Shown in pieces: positions 28,585-41,202 of a DNA stretch of 64,000 nt. The translations under genes and the position numbers were made by a program. Each line of letters starts with the position of its first letter. Within the stretch, counting starts at the first letter, position 1. This stretch comes from SAR92 bacterium BACL16 MAG-120619-bin48 (GTDB taxonomy: Bacteria > Pseudomonadota > Gammaproteobacteria > Pseudomonadales > Porticoccaceae). Below the pieces are notes generated by a model. The model was not told where the DNA came from. It searched no databases and saw only the letters and a program-made list of their open reading frames with translations. The stretch is taken from assembly GCA_001438605.1 (NCBI GenBank), contig LIDE01000015.1, forward strand, positions 26,001 to 90,000. Reading direction: 5' to 3'.

Positions 28585-30021
28585 TCACTGTTTAAAAATT
28601 TTCACCCAGTCACCGGCTTTGGGCTCGCCTCGGGGGTAATGGCCGTTGATTATACGCAGATCTTCGGTATCCGTTGGGCTGAGTTTAAGAGCCTTGGCAA
28701 GGGCATCGTAGGTGGTGGCATTGGTCGCTTTGACATAGTGGATGAGTTTGGGCCGCTGTCCGTCAATCTCGCGCTGGGAGATAGGTCGAAAGCTATCAAT
28801 AGAGGCGCTGAAGAGCTTGTCGCTGTCGTTGAACTGGGCCTGATCCACCACTTCACCAGTGAAGATAAAGGCGTTGAGTTTGTAATAGACCACAGCAATG
28901 CGCTGATCGGGCTTACTGTCGGCGCCGGGCAGAATGCCACTGTAGCCTTTGAGTCCTGCGGGCGAGATTTCGCGCCCCTGTTTCAGTTGCTTCACGCGCA
29001 AGAAATTGTACAGATACTCTTCTGGGCTCTGGGTGGTGCGCGCAATCGGTGTCATGGCCAATTTGGCGTGGTTATCGTCAGGCGCCCCGACTGTGGTGCG
29101 CGCGGTGGCGTTGTTGTTCTGCTTCCAGCCCTCGGGATAGTCGAAGCGCACACGCAGCGTCATATCCGAGTAGCGCTCGGGCTTTTTATCTTTGGCTAGA
29201 AAATTTTCTCCCCAGATTAATCCTTCGGTCAACTGGCGGTAGGTGCTCACGCCATTGTCGCGGCTGCTACTCCCTTTCAAGCGTTCGGCTGCGGTAACCA
29301 CATTGCGCAGACGGGAGTCGTTGCGCGGGTGGCTGGAAAAGATGCCATGGTAGGTTTGTTTGCTGGCGCCCTTGGCTTTGGCGCGGTCTTTTTGCAGTGT
29401 TTCATAGTCCTTCATAATTGAGAGCATGCTGAGCATTTCTTCTGGCGCATAACCCAATTTCGCCATGTACACCGCGCCCGCTTGGTCTGCTTCTAGCTCG
29501 TTGTTGCGACCATGGCTGCGCATCAGTGATGTGGAGTATTTCATCCCTGCCTCATAGACTTCGGCACTGCCCGATAGCACGCCCGCCACGGCTGATAATA
29601 CTTGTGCGCCAATGGCTTGGCCCTCTTGGCCGGTAACGTGCTTTTTCGTGATATGACCAACTTCGTGGGCCAGCACCGAGACCAGCTGTGCTTCATTGTT
29701 GATATAGTTGAGCAGACCACGATTGACGTAAACGTAGTTGCCGCGTGTGGCAAAGGCGTTTAAGTCGGGGGAGTCGAGCAGGGTAAAGGTAAACTTTTCG
29801 CCGGCCATTTCTGACTGGGCGACAATCTCTTCGCCGAGTTTTCTAATGTAGTTATCCAGCGCCGGATTGTCATAAATCGGGGTGCTGGCAATCACTTCCT
29901 TATAAATATCTTCACCCGTGGTTTTGGCCTCTGCGCTAATCACTGGCAGCAGGGCCAGGCAGAGCAGTGCGCTGAGTACTTTTTTCACTCCCGGAGTGCC
30001 TTGTGTTGTTGTCTTAACCAT
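28585..30021 (-). CDS. M48 family metalloprotease (BepA-like) with C-terminal LysM-like segment
   Basis: VLAHEVGHITKKH (HEXXH), NELEADQAGAVYMAKLGY, C-terminal LKLSPTDTEDLRIINGHYPRGEPKAGDWVKIF. Confidence 0.9.
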   Translation of the reverse strand: MVKTTTQGTPGVKKVLSALLCLALLPVISAEAKTTGEDIYKEVIASTPIYDNPALDNYIRKLGEEIVAQSEMAGEKFTFTLLDSPDLNAFATRGNYVYVNRGLLNYINNEAQLVSVLAHEVGHITKKHVTGQEGQAIGAQVLSAVAGVLSGSAEVYEAGMKYSTSLMRSHGRNNELEADQAGAVYMAKLGYAPEEMLSMLSIMKDYETLQKDRAKAKGASKQTYHGIFSSHPRNDSRLRNVVTAAERLKGSSSRDNGVSTYRQLTEGLIWGENFLAKDKKPERYSDMTLRVRFDYPEGWKQNNNATARTTVGAPDDNHAKLAMTPIARTTQSPEEYLYNFLRVKQLKQGREISPAGLKGYSGILPGADSKPDQRIAVVYYKLNAFIFTGEVVDQAQFNDSDKLFSASIDSFRPISQREIDGQRPKLIHYVKATNATTYDALAKALKLSPTDTEDLRIINGHYPRGEPKAGDWVKIFKQ

Positions 30022-30030
30022 GGGTTGCCT

Positions 30031-30699
30031 TTAGCCAGTGCTGTCTGGATTGCTGAAGAACTGTAATAACTGGTCGCCAAGGCTTTTGCAGGCGTCATCT
30101 TTGACTGGCGACAGCAGTGGAATGGGGGCGACGATACCGATCAGATAGGAGGTTCCCTGAGAGTCGACTTGCAGGCGCCCCTTTTCGCTGAGGTTGCGTA
30201 AGTCCCAGATAATGGCTTCGTAGGTTGAGCTTTTATCCCACTGCGCAAAACCGAAACAGCCGGCAATGCCCGGTGCCGCACCGCAACTCATGGAGCCGCT
30301 CTGGCCGTGACTCTCAGTTGAACCGTCGAGCCAGACAAGGTAGCGAATATGTTGGCGATCGATTTCAGCCTTGATAGTGGTGTCTTGCATCAGTCGCTTC
30401 AAGCGCGCCAGTCCTTTGGGAGCCGTGCGCGGTTCAAACCACGGGTAGATGGCGTCAACAAACTGCTGTTCAGGCATGATGCTGATATCGGCGCCCTGCA
30501 TTTTATCGGCAACACAGCCAATAAATTCGCGGTCAGTATCGTAGTGACCGGCGTCGCGGCGGCCGAGAATAACCACCGATTCGTTGCTGTTGAGCTCCAT
30601 AGCGCTGTTGTTGACGCGGTATTCATCAATCGTGGTGACGGCGCTGCAGGCGCTCAAAAAGCAGACAGCAACTAGTAGGAAGAATCTATTCATCGCCAC
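30031..30699 (-). CDS. Putative lipoprotein, unknown function
   Basis: Signal peptide with lipobox LSAC; packed between neighbours in operon. Confidence 0.75.
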   Translation of the reverse strand: MAMNRFFLLVAVCFLSACSAVTTIDEYRVNNSAMELNSNESVVILGRRDAGHYDTDREFIGCVADKMQGADISIMPEQQFVDAIYPWFEPRTAPKGLARLKRLMQDTTIKAEIDRQHIRYLVWLDGSTESHGQSGSMSCGAAPGIAGCFGFAQWDKSSTYEAIIWDLRNLSEKGRLQVDSQGTSYLIGIVAPIPLLSPVKDDACKSLGDQLLQFFSNPDSTG

Positions 30700-31303
30700 T
30701 CTCCTTGACGGGTTGTGTTCGCAGCCAGTTGTTCACACTGGGAATACGGTAAAAGTCGAGCACGAGTTTCGCGCCAGCATCGCGAAGTGCTATGACCGTA
30801 GCCTCGTCAATGGCGCTGGTTCTTGAGAGCATAAAGGAATCAGGGGTTTTGCCGTAGGCAGGCATAAACCAAGTGTCGATTTGCTCGCCCTCGGCTGTTT
30901 TGATGTCGAGACTGTACTTAATCCACACTTCGTAAACATTAAGGTAGGTGTCGGACGGGGTTGAGAGCTGCACCTCTTGGACTGAGGGGGTAATGACTAA
31001 TCCCTGCTTAAAGCTCGCCTGATCGGCTGCACTGACAATTTTCACGGTGCTGAACAACCCTTTAAAGGCGTTGGTTAGCAGCGCCACTTGCGCGCTGCCC
31101 ATGTCGATGGTGGTGTCTTTATTGGGTTTGGCGACAAATTGTCTGAATTCGTCGCTAAAAACAAGCGTTGCGCTGCTATTTTTCGGCTGCGAGATAACCG
31201 CTGGGAACCCTGCCGTAATCTGCACCTGTGCAGATGAGCTGCAGCCGACTAGGGCGATCAGCACGAAAACGCTGGCAATTAATTTTATGGTCTTTGTCTG
31301 CAT
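30686..31303 (-). CDS. Putative lipoprotein, unknown function
   Basis: Signal peptide with lipobox LVGC (start MQTKTIKL); overlaps next gene by 14 nt. Confidence 0.75.
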   Translation of the reverse strand: MQTKTIKLIASVFVLIALVGCSSSAQVQITAGFPAVISQPKNSSATLVFSDEFRQFVAKPNKDTTIDMGSAQVALLTNAFKGLFSTVKIVSAADQASFKQGLVITPSVQEVQLSTPSDTYLNVYEVWIKYSLDIKTAEGEQIDTWFMPAYGKTPDSFMLSRTSAIDEATVIALRDAGAKLVLDFYRIPSVNNWLRTQPVKESGDE

Positions 31304-31307
31304 CTTG

Positions 31308-32312
31308 TTATTTCCCTTCGTTAAGGCTGTTGAGGCCGATAAAGGTTCCCCCATTGTTGTAGCTTAGTTCACGCATTAAGGCGGCAAAACGAATGGCCGA
31401 CTCGCTGGGTGCTGACCCCTGCGCAAACTGCACCGGAAATCCAAGCGCATGGATGCGCACTAATCTGCCGGCACCGCGCTGAGCTTGATTGAGCCGATCA
31501 ACGGCTTTAACTACAGCGCGTATGGAGCGGCCCTGAAAATCATCGCCAAGGGTATAGATACTAATTTTACGGTCTGACTTGTAAAAGGTTTGAATCGCCG
31601 CGTTGATTCCTTCCACAGGGCTGGAGTTACTGAACGGCGCCCAACTGGCCAGCTTTTTAATAATATCTTTGCGCATCTCTGGGCTGTCGGGAATCCAGCG
31701 TCCGCTGTAGGCGCTAAACATATACTGCCCCATATCGTTGAGCACTTGTATGCCTTTGACGTCGGGGTAGATGTCGAGAATATTGAGCATCTCTTTTTGC
31801 ACCCGCTGCCACGCGCCCACTTGCATACTACCAGAGGTGTCGATAACAAAAATAATGTAGTCGCTGTCGACGGGGATGCCGCCGATCAAATTGTTCTGCT
31901 GTTTAAACTCTGGGCCGACGAGGCGCGCCATCTCTTCGGTGAGGACTTGCAGAACCAGTTGCAGCTGCTCTTTTTCTCGAGATTGCGACTGGGATAGTTG
32001 CATCGATTGTTTGTCGACACTGGCCAATTTAGCCTTGAGCCGCGCCACCCGCTCGGTCAACTCGGAGAGTTGCTCTTTGCGCGATTGCAGCTGTTCGTTG
32101 AGCACCACTGACTCGCCGCGCAGATCAAACAGCTCAGTTTGGTAGGTTTTGACCGCTGCACGGAGTCGTTTTTCGGCTTCCTCAAGGGCTGCTGGATCAC
32201 CAACTTTGGCGATTAATAACAGTAGAACAATGGCGCCAAAGCCACAGCTAATCACGTCCAGAAAAGACAGGCTGGCCTCTTGAAGTTCGCGGCGCTGGCG
32301 TCTCATGGCCAA
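31308..32312 (-). CDS. TM-anchored coiled-coil VWA-domain protein (ExbD/TolR-like anchor)
   Basis: SFLDVISCGFGAIVLLLLIAK anchor; coiled-coil; VWA MIDAS FVIDTSGSM; STYLGDDFQG-like downstream segment (IYTLGDDFQG). Confidence 0.85.
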   Translation of the reverse strand: MAMRRQRRELQEASLSFLDVISCGFGAIVLLLLIAKVGDPAALEEAEKRLRAAVKTYQTELFDLRGESVVLNEQLQSRKEQLSELTERVARLKAKLASVDKQSMQLSQSQSREKEQLQLVLQVLTEEMARLVGPEFKQQNNLIGGIPVDSDYIIFVIDTSGSMQVGAWQRVQKEMLNILDIYPDVKGIQVLNDMGQYMFSAYSGRWIPDSPEMRKDIIKKLASWAPFSNSSPVEGINAAIQTFYKSDRKISIYTLGDDFQGRSIRAVVKAVDRLNQAQRGAGRLVRIHALGFPVQFAQGSAPSESAIRFAALMRELSYNNGGTFIGLNSLNEGK

Positions 32313-33361
32313 TCTCGCGACGGGGCGATAAAGGCGCCCTGGGTATCAATGGCGAGCTGCCAGAACAGGGCGGCTGCTTCTGGATCGCCCTCCATCGGAA
32401 ATAAAATGGTGTTGATGGGCACGCCGCGGGGTAGTTTTTCGACGGCATCGCCAAAAAAGTTGCGTCGCTGTTTGCCGCTGACCATATAGCTGCTCGGTGC
32501 CTTGGCACCTTGGGTCGGCAGCCCGTCGGTGAGCAGAAAAATATTGTCGGGCTGGTCACTGAAGCTGTTGATGACGGCCAGGGCATTGCTCAGGCTGGTG
32601 CCGTTGCCGGGCAGATAGTCGCGCATAGCCTCTGCGGTGCGCTCTAGGTCAAGGGAGTCTGCAGCATCTAACCATTCACCCTCTGTGCCGGCCAGAGCGG
32701 GTTGTGCGCTGGTATTGAACAGGTAGACTTGAAAGCGGCTGCTGGCGGGCAGTTGAGCCAAAAGCCAATCGGTGGTGCGCAGGGTCCACTGCCATTTGTC
32801 CGACTGACGTTTTTGCGCGTCATCCATATTTCTGCGCCGCAGGGCGTTGACCACCGAGTCGGCGAGCATGCTGGCGGAGCCGTCCACTAAAATTAAAATC
32901 CGTTCACCGCCGAGTTTGAGTCCAGTCAGGTACTGGCGATTGCCGTCACCAAGAAAACCGCGCACCTTGTCGCCGAACTCCACATCTTCCATTTGCGCGG
33001 TTTCTTTTTCCAGTTGCTCCACTTGGCGGCGCAGTTTGGCGAGTTCTTCTTTGGGGTCTGACTGAATACTGTTTTCGCTCTCTTGCAGGTCGGTGATAAC
33101 TCGATCGGAGGCCCCTTGAGCGATCGCCAGCTCGCGCTGCAGAGCGTCGAGGCTGTTGAGCAACGCCACCTTCTGTTGTTCGGCCTGACTGATGTCCTGT
33201 TGCAGCAGTTCGACTTCGTCGGCGAGGCGGGGATCGGTGGTTTCGATCTCGGTCGCATTGTGACGAAGAATTAAAAACAACAGGGTTACGGCGCCAAAAC
33301 CACAGGCCATGATGTCCAAGAACGACAGGCTGAAGGCGATATTGCGGCGCTTTTTAATCAC
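32303..33361 (-). CDS. TM-anchored coiled-coil VWA-domain protein (ExbD/TolR-like anchor)
   Basis: SLSFLDIMACGFGAVTLLFLIL anchor; VWA MIDAS ILVDGSASM and FLLTDGLPTQG; overlaps next gene by 10 nt. Confidence 0.87.
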   Translation of the reverse strand: MIKKRRNIAFSLSFLDIMACGFGAVTLLFLILRHNATEIETTDPRLADEVELLQQDISQAEQQKVALLNSLDALQRELAIAQGASDRVITDLQESENSIQSDPKEELAKLRRQVEQLEKETAQMEDVEFGDKVRGFLGDGNRQYLTGLKLGGERILILVDGSASMLADSVVNALRRRNMDDAQKRQSDKWQWTLRTTDWLLAQLPASSRFQVYLFNTSAQPALAGTEGEWLDAADSLDLERTAEAMRDYLPGNGTSLSNALAVINSFSDQPDNIFLLTDGLPTQGAKAPSSYMVSGKQRRNFFGDAVEKLPRGVPINTILFPMEGDPEAAALFWQLAIDTQGAFIAPSRDWP

Positions 33362-33386: not shown

Positions 33387-34184
33387 CTATTTGGCCTTGA
33401 GAAAGCGTATTAGGCGATTTTCGCAGTAGTCGTGGGTGTCGAGGACGAGGCGCTCTTGGACAAGCTGCAACTGGTGCATAAAAAACATCACCACCATGCT
33501 GATTAACAGTGCGATAAACGTCGAGTTAAAGGCTACGCCGAGACTGCTGGTGACACCGGCAATGTTACCCTGCATGGCTTCGTGGGCTTGGCCAAGCGCG
33601 GCACCAATACCGCGCACGGTGCCAATAAAGCCAATCGACGGGATAGCCCAAGTAATGTAGCGAATCATCGACAGCTCTGAGTCGAGACGGTCGTTTTCGT
33701 TGCTGCACACAGTGTTTACTGCATCGGTTGCCGACTGCACGCTTTGCGTTACCTGAAAGCGGGTCAGGGCGGTTTGCAGTGCGCGCGGCAAGAGCAGCGA
33801 CCGCTCTTGGTCGGTGAGGCTTTGCATGGGGTGTCCGAGCTGAGGGGCCTCCTCTGGCAGCACTTTTTGGGAATCGGGGGGACTGTTGAGCAGCGCGGTG
33901 GCAAACATTTTCTGCTCGCGGAGGGCGCTGCGGGTTTTGTAGCCCATGATGGCGAGCGCCCAAAACATTAAAATAAAGCAGGACTCTTGCTCTAGGTCTT
34001 TGATAACAATAAAGAACGAGCGCGGCACCACGTAGTCTTCGCCAGCTGCCGCCATTTCTGCATGATGGCGAATGGTGGTTTCAGCATTTGGCCGCACCAC
34101 TGTGACAAACACTGCATGCACCACAATCAAGGCCAATAGCAGCGCGATCAATTGGAAGAACAGCTCGTTGGTTTGACTTTTCAT
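33387..34184 (-). CDS. MotA/TolQ/ExbB family proton channel protein
   Basis: AIPSIGFIGTVRGIGAALGQA ... VTSSLGVAFNSTFIALLISMVVMFFMHQL. Confidence 0.9.
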   Translation of the reverse strand: MKSQTNELFFQLIALLLALIVVHAVFVTVVRPNAETTIRHHAEMAAAGEDYVVPRSFFIVIKDLEQESCFILMFWALAIMGYKTRSALREQKMFATALLNSPPDSQKVLPEEAPQLGHPMQSLTDQERSLLLPRALQTALTRFQVTQSVQSATDAVNTVCSNENDRLDSELSMIRYITWAIPSIGFIGTVRGIGAALGQAHEAMQGNIAGVTSSLGVAFNSTFIALLISMVVMFFMHQLQLVQERLVLDTHDYCENRLIRFLKAK

Positions 34185-34198
34185 ATCAGTACCTGTTG

Positions 34199-34435
34199 CT
34201 AAATGTCGGATGGCAGCGAAATGGGGAAATCTTCAGAGATCTCTTCGCTGGGTTTAAAGTCCATGGGGGGATTATTCGCCGTCGTGGGGCTGTTTTCGAC
34301 GGTGGGGGCTTCGGGTGTCGCCACAGGCTCATTTGACGGCTCATTTGACGGCTCTGCTGACCACAGCGGCAGACTAACGGCGAGGAGCGCGACGGCAATT
34401 AGGCGTGAAACTCTTTTGCACATAGGGTTACTCAT
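34199..34435 (-). CDS. Small secreted P/E/N-rich protein, unknown
   Basis: Signal peptide (LIAVALLAVSLPLWSAEPS); start overlaps upstream stop by 4 nt; in-operon position. Confidence 0.6.
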   Translation of the reverse strand: MSNPMCKRVSRLIAVALLAVSLPLWSAEPSNEPSNEPVATPEAPTVENSPTTANNPPMDFKPSEEISEDFPISLPSDI

Positions 34436-36462
34436 GGTTTATCCACATAGCGGGCCACTCTAAATCCAACATCCATTCGCCCGTCACTGCCTGATTCGCG
34501 ATAACTTAAACGCAGCTCCGTGCGCGATGCTAGCGCCCAACTGGCGCCGCGAACCACATGTTGCACGCCTTGCTCGGGGCCGCGGGGGTCTGTGTCGACA
34601 GTACTCGTGTTTGGGCGAACATCAAAGTAATCATTGGTCCACTCGGCAACATTGCCGCCCATATCATAGAGCCCTTTGGGGTTGGCTGGAAAGCGTCCAA
34701 TCACGGCAGACACTGGGAAGCCATCGCTGTAGTTGGAGAGGGTAAAGCTGATCAATGATGCCGCGCTTTGATCGGCGTAGTTTTCCACGACCTGCTCGGG
34801 CGGGTAGATATCACCCTGCCACGGAAAGCGACGGGGATTGGCATTGTTGTCGAGTTTGGCTGCCCACGCCCACTCAGCCTCTGTGGGCAAGCGGTAGCCC
34901 TCTGCGTCCCAGTTAACCCCAACCACCTCGCCCTCTTCAACGCGATAGAACAGGGGCAATTTTTCCTGTCGGCTGAGCCAGTTGCAGAATAATGCAGCAT
35001 CTTGCCAGCTGACTGCCGCCACCGGCTGATCATTCATGTCGAGTGTGTTGCCGCGCAGTGCAGAGGAGCTGTGGTCTGCCTTCCAGCGTCGGTACTGGGC
35101 ATTGGTGGTCTCATGGGTGGCGAGGTAAAAGGGCCGTTGCAATGCAACGAGGCGTTCGGCTTCGTTGGCGCGTCGGCCGGGCTCACGGCGTGGGGCACCG
35201 AGCATAAATTGGTCGTTGGGGCGGAATAGTTTTAAGGTGCCGCCGACCGGGCTGGTGAGTGTGGCGGGACGTGTTGCCCAGTAGTCCTGTTGCAGGGTTA
35301 GCAGCTCGATGGTAAGAGCCTGCTGGTGCCCCGGTCTCGGTGTGACACTGATCTGCTGGCTTTTGTAACCCGCTTTCGCAACGCTGATCTGATGGGGTTT
35401 GGCGGGTAGCGTCAATGTCTGCTGTCCACTGCTATCGGGTTTTCCGCTGGCAACGCCGTTGACACTGATGTTCGCATCGGCAGGTTTGACGGTGATTCGC
35501 AGTGAGCCGCTATTTTCTGTGAGCGCTATGTTGACAGCTGTTTGCTGCTCAGGCTCAAGGCTTACTGCGCGACTGGTTTTTAAATAGCCCTCAAGAAAGA
35601 GTTCGATCTTGTGTGACTGAAAGGCTTTTAGTTCGACAGTGGCGGGGGTGGTACCGCGGAACTGGTTGTCGATGGTGATACTGGCGCCGGACGGGCTGCT
35701 GGTCAGTAGCAGTGTGCCGTCGGCGACTGCAAGAACAATGGGCGGATGCACGCCGCGAGTGCCGGCGTTAACGGTTATCGATTGTTCTACGGGCTTATAG
35801 CCGGGCGCGGTAATTTTTAACTGACTGCCGGTTTCCAATACCTCGGTGGTAAGGGGTGTTTTGCCAATTAAGCGATTATCGATGTACAGGTCAGCACCGG
35901 TCGGAACTGTATCGAGGGTCAGTTCGCCCCATGCGGGCTGCAATGCGATATCGATTGACTGAGTGTTGCCGAGGCCCTCAATGTCAATATCCTGCTGCTG
36001 GCTAAAGTAGCGATACTTGCTAAATTCGAAGAGGTGTCGCCCGCGGCTGATCTCACGCAGTGTTCCCGGTACGGTGCCGGCTGTCTCGCCGTCGATAGTG
36101 ACACTAATGTCCGTGAGGTCGCTTTTTACGGCTAGGTTGCCCGGCAGCGGTTCCAGCTTGAGGGCGATTTCTTGAGTGCCTTGGTCGCTGACCTGAATGG
36201 TTGCTGTGAGGGGCTGATAGCCGTTAGCCTCGGCGCGGACTTGGTGCTCACCTTGAAGAAAGAGGAAGTTTCCGCCGATATTAAAGGTTAGGCCGCCGGC
36301 GCTGATGTGAGCATCGGCTGGGTCCGTGCGGAAAATGACCGACTGGGCTGAGGTGAGAAACAGCATGATAGCAGCCGCTACTAGCGCGACTGCGGCGGTT
36401 GCCAACAGACCGGTTGATGTGCGCTGACTCGCGTTGGCGGGAGGGTTATGATCTGTGCTCAT
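34432..36462 (-). CDS. PEGA-repeat protein with C-terminal SUMF1/formylglycine-generating-enzyme-like domain
   Basis: About five PEGA-like repeats (GADLYIDNRLIGKTPLTTEVL..., GASITIDNQFRGTTPATVEL...), then ATHETTNAQYRRW, EGYRLPTEAEWAWAA, YDMGGNVAEWTNDY, VRGASW, DVGFRVAR. Confidence 0.9.
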   Translation of the reverse strand: MSTDHNPPANASQRTSTGLLATAAVALVAAAIMLFLTSAQSVIFRTDPADAHISAGGLTFNIGGNFLFLQGEHQVRAEANGYQPLTATIQVSDQGTQEIALKLEPLPGNLAVKSDLTDISVTIDGETAGTVPGTLREISRGRHLFEFSKYRYFSQQQDIDIEGLGNTQSIDIALQPAWGELTLDTVPTGADLYIDNRLIGKTPLTTEVLETGSQLKITAPGYKPVEQSITVNAGTRGVHPPIVLAVADGTLLLTSSPSGASITIDNQFRGTTPATVELKAFQSHKIELFLEGYLKTSRAVSLEPEQQTAVNIALTENSGSLRITVKPADANISVNGVASGKPDSSGQQTLTLPAKPHQISVAKAGYKSQQISVTPRPGHQQALTIELLTLQQDYWATRPATLTSPVGGTLKLFRPNDQFMLGAPRREPGRRANEAERLVALQRPFYLATHETTNAQYRRWKADHSSSALRGNTLDMNDQPVAAVSWQDAALFCNWLSRQEKLPLFYRVEEGEVVGVNWDAEGYRLPTEAEWAWAAKLDNNANPRRFPWQGDIYPPEQVVENYADQSAASLISFTLSNYSDGFPVSAVIGRFPANPKGLYDMGGNVAEWTNDYFDVRPNTSTVDTDPRGPEQGVQHVVRGASWALASRTELRLSYRESGSDGRMDVGFRVARYVDKP

Positions 36463-36523: not shown

Positions 36524-37945
36524 TTAAATTAAATCGCTGCAGATGACCTCAATGGGCGTTTTTAGGCCACTGTCGGTCAATGTAAATTCAATGCGCACAT
36601 CGCGGTAGCCGGCCCTTGTGCCTGCGATGATGTAACGGCCCGGTTTTAACGCGACCGATGTGCGGTCGAATTGTCCCAGCTTGGCCACACGAAAAAGTGT
36701 TACTTCGGTGAATTGGTCTGAGACAAGCTGCACTTCAATGGGGGTTTGCGATGCTGCCAAGTGGTGTTTTAGCCGAGCGATCTGATCCCTCAGAACGGGC
36801 CCCGGGTTGGGAATGCCTTCAGCATCTTGCAGCAAGCTCTGCCCCCGTTGATAGTTTTTGGGGGCGGACAGCGCGAGGGGATCGTCGAGGGTGCGGCGAA
36901 TTTTCTGATCGAGATCAGCGCGCACGGCGACAGGAAGTTGCCGCACCTTAATATCGCTGAGGGTTGGGTCGGTGGCCAGCAGCTCGCGGTAGACAGCCTC
37001 AGCCTCGGACCACTTTTCAGCGTCTTCCAGTGCTTTGGCTTTGGTGATGCCATCGTTTACCCAGCGCTGTGCCCGACGATTTTCCACTTGCGACAGTGCT
37101 TGAGTCACGGTCGTGTTGCCCGGGTAGACCTTTTCGGCCTCGGCAAACGCACGATTGGCGGTGTCCAACTGGTCTTCGCTCAACGCACTAAAGCCTCGAC
37201 TCATCCAATTATTAAAGCGCTCTTGGGTAATTTTTTTCTCAATAGCCACCAGCGCTGCGGCGGCTTCTTGATGATCAGGATCGAGCGCGACAGCCTCGGC
37301 CAAGGGTGTTCTGGCACCGGTGAAGTCGCCGGCGGCGCTAAGTGCTTGGCTGCGCTGCATGAGGTCAATAAGCGCGGGCAGCAGGGTGGCTCGTTGCGCC
37401 AGTTTTTGCACCTCGTTATTCTCGGGCGCCATGGCCTGTGCGAGGGCGGAAGTGCGGCGGGCGGTGTCGAGATCGCGCTGGGCAATGGCTGTGCGGGCCT
37501 CGGTGATGGACTGTTGCAGCAGATTTACACCCCTTTCTTCAAGTGCCTTTAAGGTGTCGAGCGAGCGCTGGTAGCGCGCTACCGACTCTGCGTAGTTGCC
37601 AATGGCGTATTGCTCGTCGCCGCCGGTAATATCGGCGACGGCTTGGCTGAAGTCGATATCGGCCCAGAGATTGACTTGCTGTTGCTGCAGGCGCTCGCGG
37701 CGCAGAATAATCTCGGCGAGGATAGTTTGTGCATCTTGCCGATATTTACTTTTTTCCGCGGCTAGGGAGGGGCTAACAACGGCAGGCGAGTTAATTTGTG
37801 CTGTGTTTTCGGCCTGTTTTGAATCTGCAATCCAAGGCTCTGTTACCCAATTGGGCAGCACAAAAATCACCACCACAGCGAGAAATAGCAGTGCGCTAAC
37901 GATGACCTTTTGCTTGCCGGCCTGTTTATGTGGTGTTTCGTTCAT
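36524..37945 (-). CDS. Single-TM TPR-like protein with PEGA-like C-terminus
   Basis: TM VIVSALLFLAVVVIFVLPNWV; helical repeats (YAIGNYAESVARYQRSLDTL, GDFTGARTPLAEAVALDPDHQEA); C-terminal SVALKPGRYIIAGTRAGYRDVRIEFTL. Confidence 0.7.
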   Translation of the reverse strand: MNETPHKQAGKQKVIVSALLFLAVVVIFVLPNWVTEPWIADSKQAENTAQINSPAVVSPSLAAEKSKYRQDAQTILAEIILRRERLQQQQVNLWADIDFSQAVADITGGDEQYAIGNYAESVARYQRSLDTLKALEERGVNLLQQSITEARTAIAQRDLDTARRTSALAQAMAPENNEVQKLAQRATLLPALIDLMQRSQALSAAGDFTGARTPLAEAVALDPDHQEAAAALVAIEKKITQERFNNWMSRGFSALSEDQLDTANRAFAEAEKVYPGNTTVTQALSQVENRRAQRWVNDGITKAKALEDAEKWSEAEAVYRELLATDPTLSDIKVRQLPVAVRADLDQKIRRTLDDPLALSAPKNYQRGQSLLQDAEGIPNPGPVLRDQIARLKHHLAASQTPIEVQLVSDQFTEVTLFRVAKLGQFDRTSVALKPGRYIIAGTRAGYRDVRIEFTLTDSGLKTPIEVICSDLI

Positions 37946-37948
37946 AGG

Positions 37949-39169
37949 CTAGGGCGTGGCGCGTTCCTGCTGGTAAATTTTGGCTAACAGTTCTTGCCAC
38001 TGGGCGTATTGGGCTTGCACTGTCCCGGTGAGTGTCACCGTGCGATCTTCCAACTCAATGACTTGAGGCGCAATTTCAGCCTCGAGAGAGGAACCCATTT
38101 CTGCCACGGCTTCATTGTACTCCGCGGATTTTTGTTTGCTGTCGAGTCCGGCTTTGACAACGAATCCGCCGACCGCTGCTGTGGCAATGCTGGCGTCGTT
38201 GGCCATGGCCGTGTCGGCCTGTGTGCGGCCATAAATGCCCGCTAAAATGGCGCCGATTCCGCTGATAATCTGACGGTTGCCTTTAGCATTGAGCTGTCGT
38301 GATTTAACCACTGAGTCGTAGGAGGCTCGACGGAAGTCTTGATAGGCAAGATGCATTTGTTGCGAAAACCGATCGTAATAGTCTTGCATGGTGTCGATGT
38401 ACAGGTAATCCCGCTCGCGGATTTTGCGCACCCGCAAGAGAATGCTGTCGTTCTCTGCTGGCAGGCGTGCGATATGCAAAATGCCTTTGCGATCTTCTTC
38501 GACATAGTTGTCGAAAGCCTCTGGCGAGAAGCGTTTGGCAAAGCGCAGTTCCGAGAGGGTGCGTAGTTCGATAGCGCGCTCATCACTTATTTTTTCACGG
38601 TGCTTGAGTAAATCATTGGCGATGCGGATAAACAGATTTTGAAATGGGTCGCCAAGATTTTTTAAACGGCGGTCGTAGGCATATTTACCGGTGGTCTGCT
38701 TGTAGCGTTTGTTGAACCATTTTTTACCGCTGCTATCGACCGCCGTAATGTCGAGATCGAGGGTTTCGCCATCTGACTGGTGAATGGTACCGGTGATATA
38801 CAGATCCATAATAACGTCGCTGCTGGGCGTGACTCGAATGGCGCCCCAAGCTCCGCTTTTCTCTAACACTTTACCCAGTTGGTTGGAAAAATAGATAGCC
38901 TCAGCGTAGCGAACTTCCGGAAACACGGTGTCGTCGGAGTCGGTGAGTGAAAGACCGTCATTGAGCGTGGGGATGCCAATATCGAGCAGTGTTTCCGCTG
39001 GATAGGGGCGCGACGGGGTGTTGAGTGTGAGGCTAGTCGACGACGTCGATTTATCGATGGCGGCGGTGGCCTGACCACTGACGGCGAGGCAAAGCATAAG
39101 AGCCAAAAAGAGCTGCAGTGCGCGGGGCATCACAGTGAAACCTTGGGGTGTAGACTTGTCGAATGGCAT
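37949..39169 (-). CDS. Secreted/periplasmic protein of unknown function
   Basis: Long ORF with signal peptide (LQLFLALMLCLAVSGQATAA), in-operon; no family recognised. Confidence 0.7.
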   Translation of the reverse strand: MPFDKSTPQGFTVMPRALQLFLALMLCLAVSGQATAAIDKSTSSTSLTLNTPSRPYPAETLLDIGIPTLNDGLSLTDSDDTVFPEVRYAEAIYFSNQLGKVLEKSGAWGAIRVTPSSDVIMDLYITGTIHQSDGETLDLDITAVDSSGKKWFNKRYKQTTGKYAYDRRLKNLGDPFQNLFIRIANDLLKHREKISDERAIELRTLSELRFAKRFSPEAFDNYVEEDRKGILHIARLPAENDSILLRVRKIRERDYLYIDTMQDYYDRFSQQMHLAYQDFRRASYDSVVKSRQLNAKGNRQIISGIGAILAGIYGRTQADTAMANDASIATAAVGGFVVKAGLDSKQKSAEYNEAVAEMGSSLEAEIAPQVIELEDRTVTLTGTVQAQYAQWQELLAKIYQQERATP

Positions 39170-39185: not shown

Positions 39186-39980
39186 CTATCGCTGGTTCTT
39201 TATACGGCGGTATTCGTCCCAGAGCTTTTCTCGCAGCACCGGGTCCTGTTCTTTTTCGGCGGCATCGCGTATCTGCCGCTCAACAATATTGTCGCCTTTA
39301 CCATCACCTATATCGTCGGGAATTGGAATAATCGCCGCATCTGCGGGTTGCCCCGCGCTCGCGGTGCTGCTGCCTTGCGGGCCTTCAGCGGACATTCCAG
39401 CATCCCCGGCGCCGGACGAGGCACCCTCCGCGGCGCGCTGTTCAATGGCGGCGCTGCTGTCGGCATCGCCTAGATCGCCCTCTTCAAAGAGCGGCTCATT
39501 GCTGTCTCTCTGGTCGGCGGCATTGCCACTTGGGCTGAGTATATCGATAGTGGCGGGGTCTTGTTTGTTGCGCTCTGCCGTGACGGTGTCGTCAAAGTCT
39601 TCGAGGGATCTATCTAGGGTCTCATCGAGACCGTCAACCGACTCGTCGCTGCCAGGGGCTGCAGGTTGCCCCGCAGAGGGTTCTGGAAAATTACTGCCGC
39701 CCGCATCACCGCTGGTGCTCGGGGACTGTTTGTCGCCACTATTACCTGTACTGGTACTGGGTGCGCCGCCCTGGGGAGACGACGAATCGCTGCCGCTGTC
39801 ACCGCTCGGTGCAGGCGTGCCGCCAGAGGGCCCCGAGGGCATTGATGAGCCTGTGGGTGTGCCGAATGGCGAGGGCATATTACAGCCGCTTAGCGTCAGT
39901 GCTATTGCCAGCGCAAGGGTGGCAGCCATTGGGCTGGTGTGCAGTGCGCGGGTATCTTTTGAGGCAGTGAATTTTGTCAT
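39186..39980 (-). CDS. Low-complexity (S/G/P/D-rich) lipoprotein with charged C-terminal motif
   Basis: Lipobox LSGC; disordered linker; C-terminal GDNIVERQIRDAAEKEQDPVLREKLWDEYRRIKNQ. Confidence 0.7.
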   Translation of the reverse strand: MTKFTASKDTRALHTSPMAATLALAIALTLSGCNMPSPFGTPTGSSMPSGPSGGTPAPSGDSGSDSSSPQGGAPSTSTGNSGDKQSPSTSGDAGGSNFPEPSAGQPAAPGSDESVDGLDETLDRSLEDFDDTVTAERNKQDPATIDILSPSGNAADQRDSNEPLFEEGDLGDADSSAAIEQRAAEGASSGAGDAGMSAEGPQGSSTASAGQPADAAIIPIPDDIGDGKGDNIVERQIRDAAEKEQDPVLREKLWDEYRRIKNQR

Positions 39981-39987
39981 GGGAAAA

Positions 39988-41202
39988 TTACTTTCTTGTC
40001 AAATTGAGGTCAGCTTGCTGCGACGCATAGGGCAACACTATCTCGGCCTTTGTCGGTTTGCCCTCAACCCATTGCGGGCGAAAGCGCATATTGCGAATAT
40101 CTTTGTATATTGAGTTAAGTGCTCTTTCGCTAAGACTCTCTGGGGGGTCGATAATGGCTGGATTTCTTGTGCTCCCCGACGATAACACAGTCACGGTAAC
40201 CTGCAGATCTTGCGGCAGCGTGGTTTGGCCGCGATTGGCGGCGGTATAGGCAATCAGCGTTGGTTGGCCAAACAGTGCTTGGCGCTGGGTGTTGCCGTTC
40301 TCGTCATCAGGAAGTAACTCGTAGGCGAGGTTATAGGTTTTTTTAGCGGATGCTCGCTGGGCAAAGGCCGTGTACCAGTCGCCAACGTCGATCAGTGCGA
40401 GCGCTTTTTCGGTCATACTGGCGTCTGGTTGTTGCTCTAGGGATTTCACTCTCTCTTCGAGTGCCGCTTTGCCGCGACGAAAGTGCATGTGCGAGGAACT
40501 CTCTTGGCTGCGCACCTGCTGGCCGTTGTTGATACTAAAGCCGGACTCGACCGGTTCGCCATATTCCTCAAGATGGCGCGCGATCATGTAGTGCATGTGG
40601 CTTATTTTGCGGTACTGTTCAGCGGATTCTGAGGGATTTATCGCTTTATTGTTGCTGAGAATACGGTACATGCGCTCACCGATATCTTCGGCGACAATCA
40701 AACTTTTGTAGGCATCGCTGCGGGACAGTTGGTCATAGCTGTCGGTGTACCAGTCGAGCAGTTGCTCGAGTACCGGCAACATGGCGGGGCTCGATTCGCC
40801 GTGAGTTTCAACATTGATATTGTAGAGCGTTTCCAGCGCTGCCTGTGATTCCGTATAGTTGCCAAGCTGGGTTTCTGTCTCGGCGATCGAGAACAGGTAG
40901 GGCGTCTGCGCGAGACTGTTCAGCCCTAAATTAACCCGTTCAATTTGCATGCCACGCTGAAACGCTCGTTTCGCGGCCGCGAAGTCACCGCTGGTCACGT
41001 AGGCATTGCCGAGACTCAGGTATAAGTCGGCGAGTTCTCTTGAATAGGCGCTGCTGTCGCTTTCAATGGTATCGATAGCGCGTATGTAGTTGGTGATGGC
41101 ATCTGACGCGGTAGGTTCTTGTGCGGAAATGAACGGATTTAGTAGCAGACCAACGATTAGGGTTGTGCTGCTGAGGTACCATTTTTTATAGCCGCTGTTC
41201 AT
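39988..41202 (-). CDS. Secreted TPR protein with C-terminal TonB_C-like domain
   Basis: Signal/TM segment; TPR-like LADLYLSLGNAYVTSGDFAAAKRAFQRGMQIE; C-terminal LQVTVTVLSSGSTRNPAII...ALNSIYKDIRNMRFRPQWVEGKPTKAEIVLPY. Confidence 0.75.
   Translation of the reverse strand: MNSGYKKWYLSSTTLIVGLLLNPFISAQEPTASDAITNYIRAIDTIESDSSAYSRELADLYLSLGNAYVTSGDFAAAKRAFQRGMQIERVNLGLNSLAQTPYLFSIAETETQLGNYTESQAALETLYNINVETHGESSPAMLPVLEQLLDWYTDSYDQLSRSDAYKSLIVAEDIGERMYRILSNNKAINPSESAEQYRKISHMHYMIARHLEEYGEPVESGFSINNGQQVRSQESSSHMHFRRGKAALEERVKSLEQQPDASMTEKALALIDVGDWYTAFAQRASAKKTYNLAYELLPDDENGNTQRQALFGQPTLIAYTAANRGQTTLPQDLQVTVTVLSSGSTRNPAIIDPPESLSERALNSIYKDIRNMRFRPQWVEGKPTKAEIVLPYASQQADLNLTRK

Follow-up and report, generated by a model that had tools for sequence, protein, structure and literature searches.

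Two membrane-anchored VWA proteins encoded in tandem in the window (the whole stretch of 64,000 nucleotides analyzed here) are probably the moving core of a cell-envelope motor powered by protons, and the locus is a well-conserved example of a kind of motor predicted in 2025, set in a larger gene cluster. The best reading, which we hold to be rather probable, is a TolQ5:VWA1:VWA2 motor driven by protons, in which an Asp-bearing heterodimer serves as the plug. It is based on the gene pair itself, the conservation of Asp in the helices and of Thr in the motor subunit, the co-occurrence with a TolQ-like gene, the lack of an adjacent ExbD/TolR gene, the fold of VWA1 and the conservation of the surrounding cluster.

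VWA1 (32303..33361, minus strand) runs from a GTG at 33361 to a stop at 32303 and consists of a basic N-terminus, a transmembrane helix with D16, a coiled coil, a VWA domain with MIDAS and a C-terminal WP. VWA2 (31308..32306, minus strand) has the same architecture, with the Asp at the same place and a MIDAS reading DTSGS. Its start is most likely the ATG at 32306, which overlaps the VWA1 stop as ATGA; counted from this ATG the Asp is D17, and D19 in the TTG-started ORF. ATGA is found at the VWA1 stop in 50/79 loci, an overlap that suits equal amounts of both proteins. The Trp-Pro at the C-terminal end of VWA1, which overlaps the VWA2 start (32303-32311 in the window), is nearly invariant (96/99 relatives). 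Each protein has just one hydrophobic helix, FLD[IV]-x-x-CGFGA, and this contains one Asp, located at the beginning. The first-pass annotation had described two tandem proteins with basic N-termini and quoted their helices, and its coordinates, sequences and gene order proved correct. In hhalign the profile of VWA1 matches that of VWA2 from one end to the other (probability 99%, E 4e-18, 311 columns), and the first 45 residues alone reach E 3e-18; judged by these profiles, the two are paralogues over their whole length and the likeness of the helices is more than chance.

The Pfam VWA matches of both proteins fall under the curated cut-offs. In the predicted structure of VWA1, pLDDT is about 82-96 over the VWA part, and solved VWA domains from the PDB match it at E about 1e-7. 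Because this model is confident and matches solved domains, the VWA domain is accepted as real despite the sub-cut-off Pfam scores, the VWA1 fold being confidently predicted. The MIDAS D-x-S-x-S is invariant in VWA1 and VWA2 relatives, and so is an Asp farther along the chain (D279 in VWA1, D257 in VWA2). Residues 1-42 of the VWA1 monomer model are of low confidence, and the model is therefore uninformative on the structure of the helix.

Directly upstream of the pair, as first noted, lies a gene for a TolQ/ExbB/MotA-like pentamer subunit (33387..34184, minus strand), which belongs to the MotA/TolQ/ExbB family (PF01618, E 1e-14). A profile search of the PDB with the TolQ alignment returned nothing at E 0.01. 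In a gap-free phmmer alignment, which is sub-threshold (E 0.74) but collinear, T189 and T222 fall on the pore threonines T145 and T178 of Escherichia coli TolQ. At the sequence level both are kept in the TolQ-like relatives, and this invariance suggests a working pore. In all but one of the cases where the contig extends far enough, the TolQ-like gene adjoins the pair. A loss in locus L160 (genome G232), where the gene is missing beside the pair, was considered and dismissed, as the orthologue was found elsewhere in that genome.

No ExbD/TolR gene was found next to the motor in any locus checked with the ExbD HMM, whose two hits, in L156 and L157, are separated from the pair by over 7 kb, and no ExbD stands beside the motor in the 10 further genomes. 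The plug could nevertheless be an ordinary ExbD/TolR encoded elsewhere in the genome, with the VWA proteins acting as cargo or adaptors at the motor edge, as TolA and TonB do. The genome of the window has four ExbD genes, one of which (C28) has no ExbB beside it, and ExbD genes are also present in other genomes with the pair; a borrowed ExbD is therefore conceivable, though unlikely. Against such an arrangement, this TolQ has no linked ExbD at any of the loci, and the edge-binding SHLS motif (S-3x-H-6x-L-3x-S) is in neither the VWA1 nor the VWA2 helix as read from the sequences, while their invariant Asp sits at the cytoplasmic end as in plug helices. The ExbD gene without an ExbB neighbor (L194:2292-2699) lies among mutM-, coaD- and ftsY-like genes.

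Conservation of the helix Asp among homologues had been set beforehand as a test of the proposal. In VWA1 it is found in 81/81 near loci and in 99/99 relatives once those at class level are added; in VWA2 the counts are 77/77 and, among N-terminally complete relatives, 93/93, two entries that are truncated ORFs having been left out. Since close relatives make up many of the counted sequences, 99/99 does not amount to 99 independent observations, and the distant families carry most weight. The Asp is also kept in both proteins of the 10 further genomes, most of them from another branch of the phylum, where CGFGA can drift to SGLGA or SAFAA. Among the inner-membrane anchors of the operon, only the VWA helices have an acidic residue; the anchors of the PEGA/FGE protein and TPR2 have none.

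Two apparent departures turned out to be artifacts of ORF calling. An Asp loss in VWA1 of family f205 was rejected: the called start was clipped, and the reading frame, which extends to a conserved CTG, still contains the Asp. In this family (L180-L187) no ATG, GTG or TTG precedes the helix and the CTG stands at the expected start, so that an automatic gene caller would cut off the Asp. A VWA2 fusion in L160 (a 673-residue frame) was likewise discarded as an over-long mechanical ORF overlapping VWA1.

Alternatively, the VWA proteins could be membrane-anchored assembly or scaffolding factors in which the Asp caps the helix or makes a packing contact and no ions flow along the helices. VWA proteins often serve as assembly factors, and conservation extends beyond the Asp to a large part of the helix segment (FLD..CGFGA), as expected of a packing interface. 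Such a role is nonetheless improbable, since in the distant family f205 the Cys and Gly positions change while the Asp does not, and the invariant TolQ threonines suggest that the pore is at work.

The first-pass annotation had likened the helix to that of ExbD/TolR, and this did not hold up in profile comparisons: residues 1-45 gave HMM-HMM probabilities of 1-45%, and the hhalign alignments inspected rested on the basic N-terminus or on a small number of aliphatic residues, with Asp never placed on Asp. Against Pfam, neither VWA protein hit ExbD (PF02472) or MotB_plug (PF13677). When compared directly with the MotB plug by hhalign, Asp falls on Asp for both proteins at a probability of only 2-9%. 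In global mode 0/80 column shuffles reach the score for either protein, and in local mode 7/80 (VWA1) and 2/80 (VWA2) do. The raw global score for VWA1 is higher with MotB than with ExbD/TolR; for VWA2 it is higher with ExbD/TolR (19 versus 14), but that alignment leaves the Asp unmatched. For scale, the accepted relatives MotB and ExbD reach a probability of only 69% against each other in hhalign, so the method has little power on short helices. By the register of its Asp, the helix fits better to the MotB plug than to ExbD/TolR, although without significance. Its role appears to be shared with both kinds of plug by analogy, and homology is unproven. The earlier proposal of a heteromeric plug with a VWA head thus stands in part: the invariant Asp, the retained TolQ threonines, the lack of ExbD/TolR beside the motor and published AlphaFold3 models of like loci favor it, and the likeness of the helix to ExbD/TolR is not borne out by profile comparison.

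The motor genes are part of a conserved cluster, all on the minus strand. Upstream of the TolQ-like gene lies an ORF for a small secreted protein (34199..34435) with the C-terminal motif SEEISED-x-PI-x-LPSDI, and similar ORFs occur in L003, L020 and L082. Its conserved acidic tail ends in LPSDI, and the gene sits between TolQ and the PEGA/FGE gene; a loose pattern scan for this tail matched 75/109 loci and was not relied on. The PEGA/FGE gene (34432..36462) encodes an inner-membrane-anchored protein with PEGA repeats (PF08308, 4e-46) and an FGE-sulfatase domain (PF03781, 1.7e-38). Farther upstream are genes for the membrane-anchored TPR protein TPR2 (36524..37945, TPR hits), a secreted protein without a Pfam hit that is well conserved in the cluster (37949..39169) and a Ser/Gly-rich lipoprotein with the lipobox LSGC (39186..39980), all syntenic like the PEGA/FGE gene, and for the secreted TPR protein TPR1 (39988..41202), which is syntenic in near relatives and whose C-terminus is weakly TonB_C-like (E 0.088). 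On the other side of the pair are lipoproteins A (30686..31354, lipobox VGC) and B (30031..30699, lipobox SAC), both recognized from sequence and syntenic in gammaproteobacterial relatives, and a putative M48-type metalloprotease (28585..30021), named from its HEVGH motif and syntenic in most of these relatives. No Rfam match was found at 26-44 kb of the window.

When one genome per species was scanned, VWA1 relatives turned up at 80 loci, for the most part in Porticoccaceae/SAR92 and relatives, and some of the loci are from cultured-looking marine strains (SAR92-clade H921 and H231, HTCC2207). In unbiased draws the family was found in 22/274 gammaproteobacterial genomes, three of the 22 being weak and partial, and in 16/399 genomes of the phylum, one of the 16 being weak. 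In loci with enough flanking DNA, the shared order is TPR1, Ser/Gly lipoprotein, secreted protein, TPR2, PEGA/FGE, TolQ, VWA1, VWA2, two lipoproteins and M48-like protease, the last missing in a few. Distant families retain a core of lipoprotein, secreted protein, TPR2, PEGA/FGE, TolQ, VWA1 and VWA2, and there the flanking lipoproteins and protease are often absent. This gene content bears on whether the locus could be a divergent Zorya-like or T9SS-like machine, since TolQ matches the ZorA model at E 0.0012 and the FGE domain is nearest to GldK among NCBIfam models (1.1e-26). However, the seven proteins scanned gave no further Zorya match, FGE domains are common and there was no GldL/M/N hit, and the cluster order is kept across many families, unlike that of a mobile defense island. 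On gene content this origin is largely refuted and appears very improbable.

In most gammaproteobacterial loci a further gene of about 420-500 residues lies between TolQ and VWA1 (71/75 loci with both genes; among the remaining four, two leave enough space for it). No Pfam model scored above its cut-off on the protein, exemplified by L003:8677-10008, and structure prediction (pLDDT 87) gives a model that resembles Hsp70 nucleotide-binding domains (E about 1e-17), followed by a beta-rich C-terminal part that may be FHA-like. The alignment does not show the usual phosphate-loop signatures, so the protein may not hydrolyze ATP. The gene is absent from the window and from L082 and had no match in the near-complete genome of the window; the machine, if active there, therefore does not need it.

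Under the motor reading, VWA1 and VWA2 would pair as a heterodimer whose N-terminal helices both enter the pore of the TolQ-like pentamer, at a stoichiometry of 5:1:1 for TolQ:VWA1:VWA2. Protons would flow by protonation of the two conserved aspartates beside the TolQ threonine ring and, as in MotAB, ExbBD and TolQR, drive relative rotation, which the coiled coils would pass into the periplasm. There the VWA heads would pull on or remodel a partner from the envelope cluster, probably by way of their metal sites, with the PEGA/FGE protein, the TPR proteins and the lipoproteins as candidates. Pore insertion, the 5:1:1 ratio, proton coupling and force on a periplasmic or outer-membrane partner are all steps that we infer. 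More tentatively, the pair could be the rotor of a dedicated envelope machine that drives the PEGA/FGE, TPR, small secreted and lipoprotein parts, with the presumably cytoplasmic Hsp70-NBD-like protein and its beta-rich tail, encoded between motor and rotor in most gammaproteobacterial loci, perhaps as a non-hydrolyzing regulator. Such a machine would add another kind to Tol, Ton and Mot.

Compared with known systems, the VWA proteins share with the MotB plug (PF13677) a basic N-terminus and S-[FY]-x-D-[FIV]-[IM] at the start of the transmembrane helix, whereas MotB carries a peptidoglycan-binding domain in place of the VWA head and the sequence similarity is not significant. With ExbD/TolR (PF02472) they have in common the role of partner to TolQ/ExbB, a single transmembrane helix and an Asp near the cytoplasmic side; ExbD has its own periplasmic domain where these proteins have VWA, and no sequence homology is detectable. 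Should the motor reading hold, the part of a known rotary motor that handles peptidoglycan, TonB or Pal has been replaced here by a metal-binding VWA head, and the rotor would be an obligate heterodimer. As each aspartate can be mutated alone, it can be asked what asymmetry a 5:2 motor tolerates, and the conserved cluster supplies named candidate partners. The SHLS vWA transducers, as depicted by Williams-Jones et al. 2025 (PMC12204202, Fig. 4a,b), are also membrane-anchored vWA proteins with a TolQ-like motor, but they occur together with a tolR-like pair and their predicted binding site is the edge of the motor, while VWA1 and VWA2 have neither SHLS nor a tolR neighbor. Closest are the paired TPH-vWA proteins in the same paper, where heterologous vWA pairs are tightly linked to tolQ-like genes without tolR/exbD and AlphaFold3 models show an Asp-bearing trans-pore helix (Fig. 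4c,d; Idiomarina loihiensis query). The adjacent tolQ-like gene, the missing tolR/exbD, the vWA pair, the Asp helix and the threonine ring are common to both, and no difference in the motor emerges from the arrangement described there. Full-text searches of an open-access library turned up no other paper describing this arrangement. The locus is thus a new example of the kind predicted in that passage, which makes no mention of a PEGA/FGE-TPR2-lipoprotein cluster or an Hsp70-NBD-like gene; the motor idea itself is already published, and what is added here is the conserved envelope cluster around the pair together with the Hsp70-NBD-like gene.
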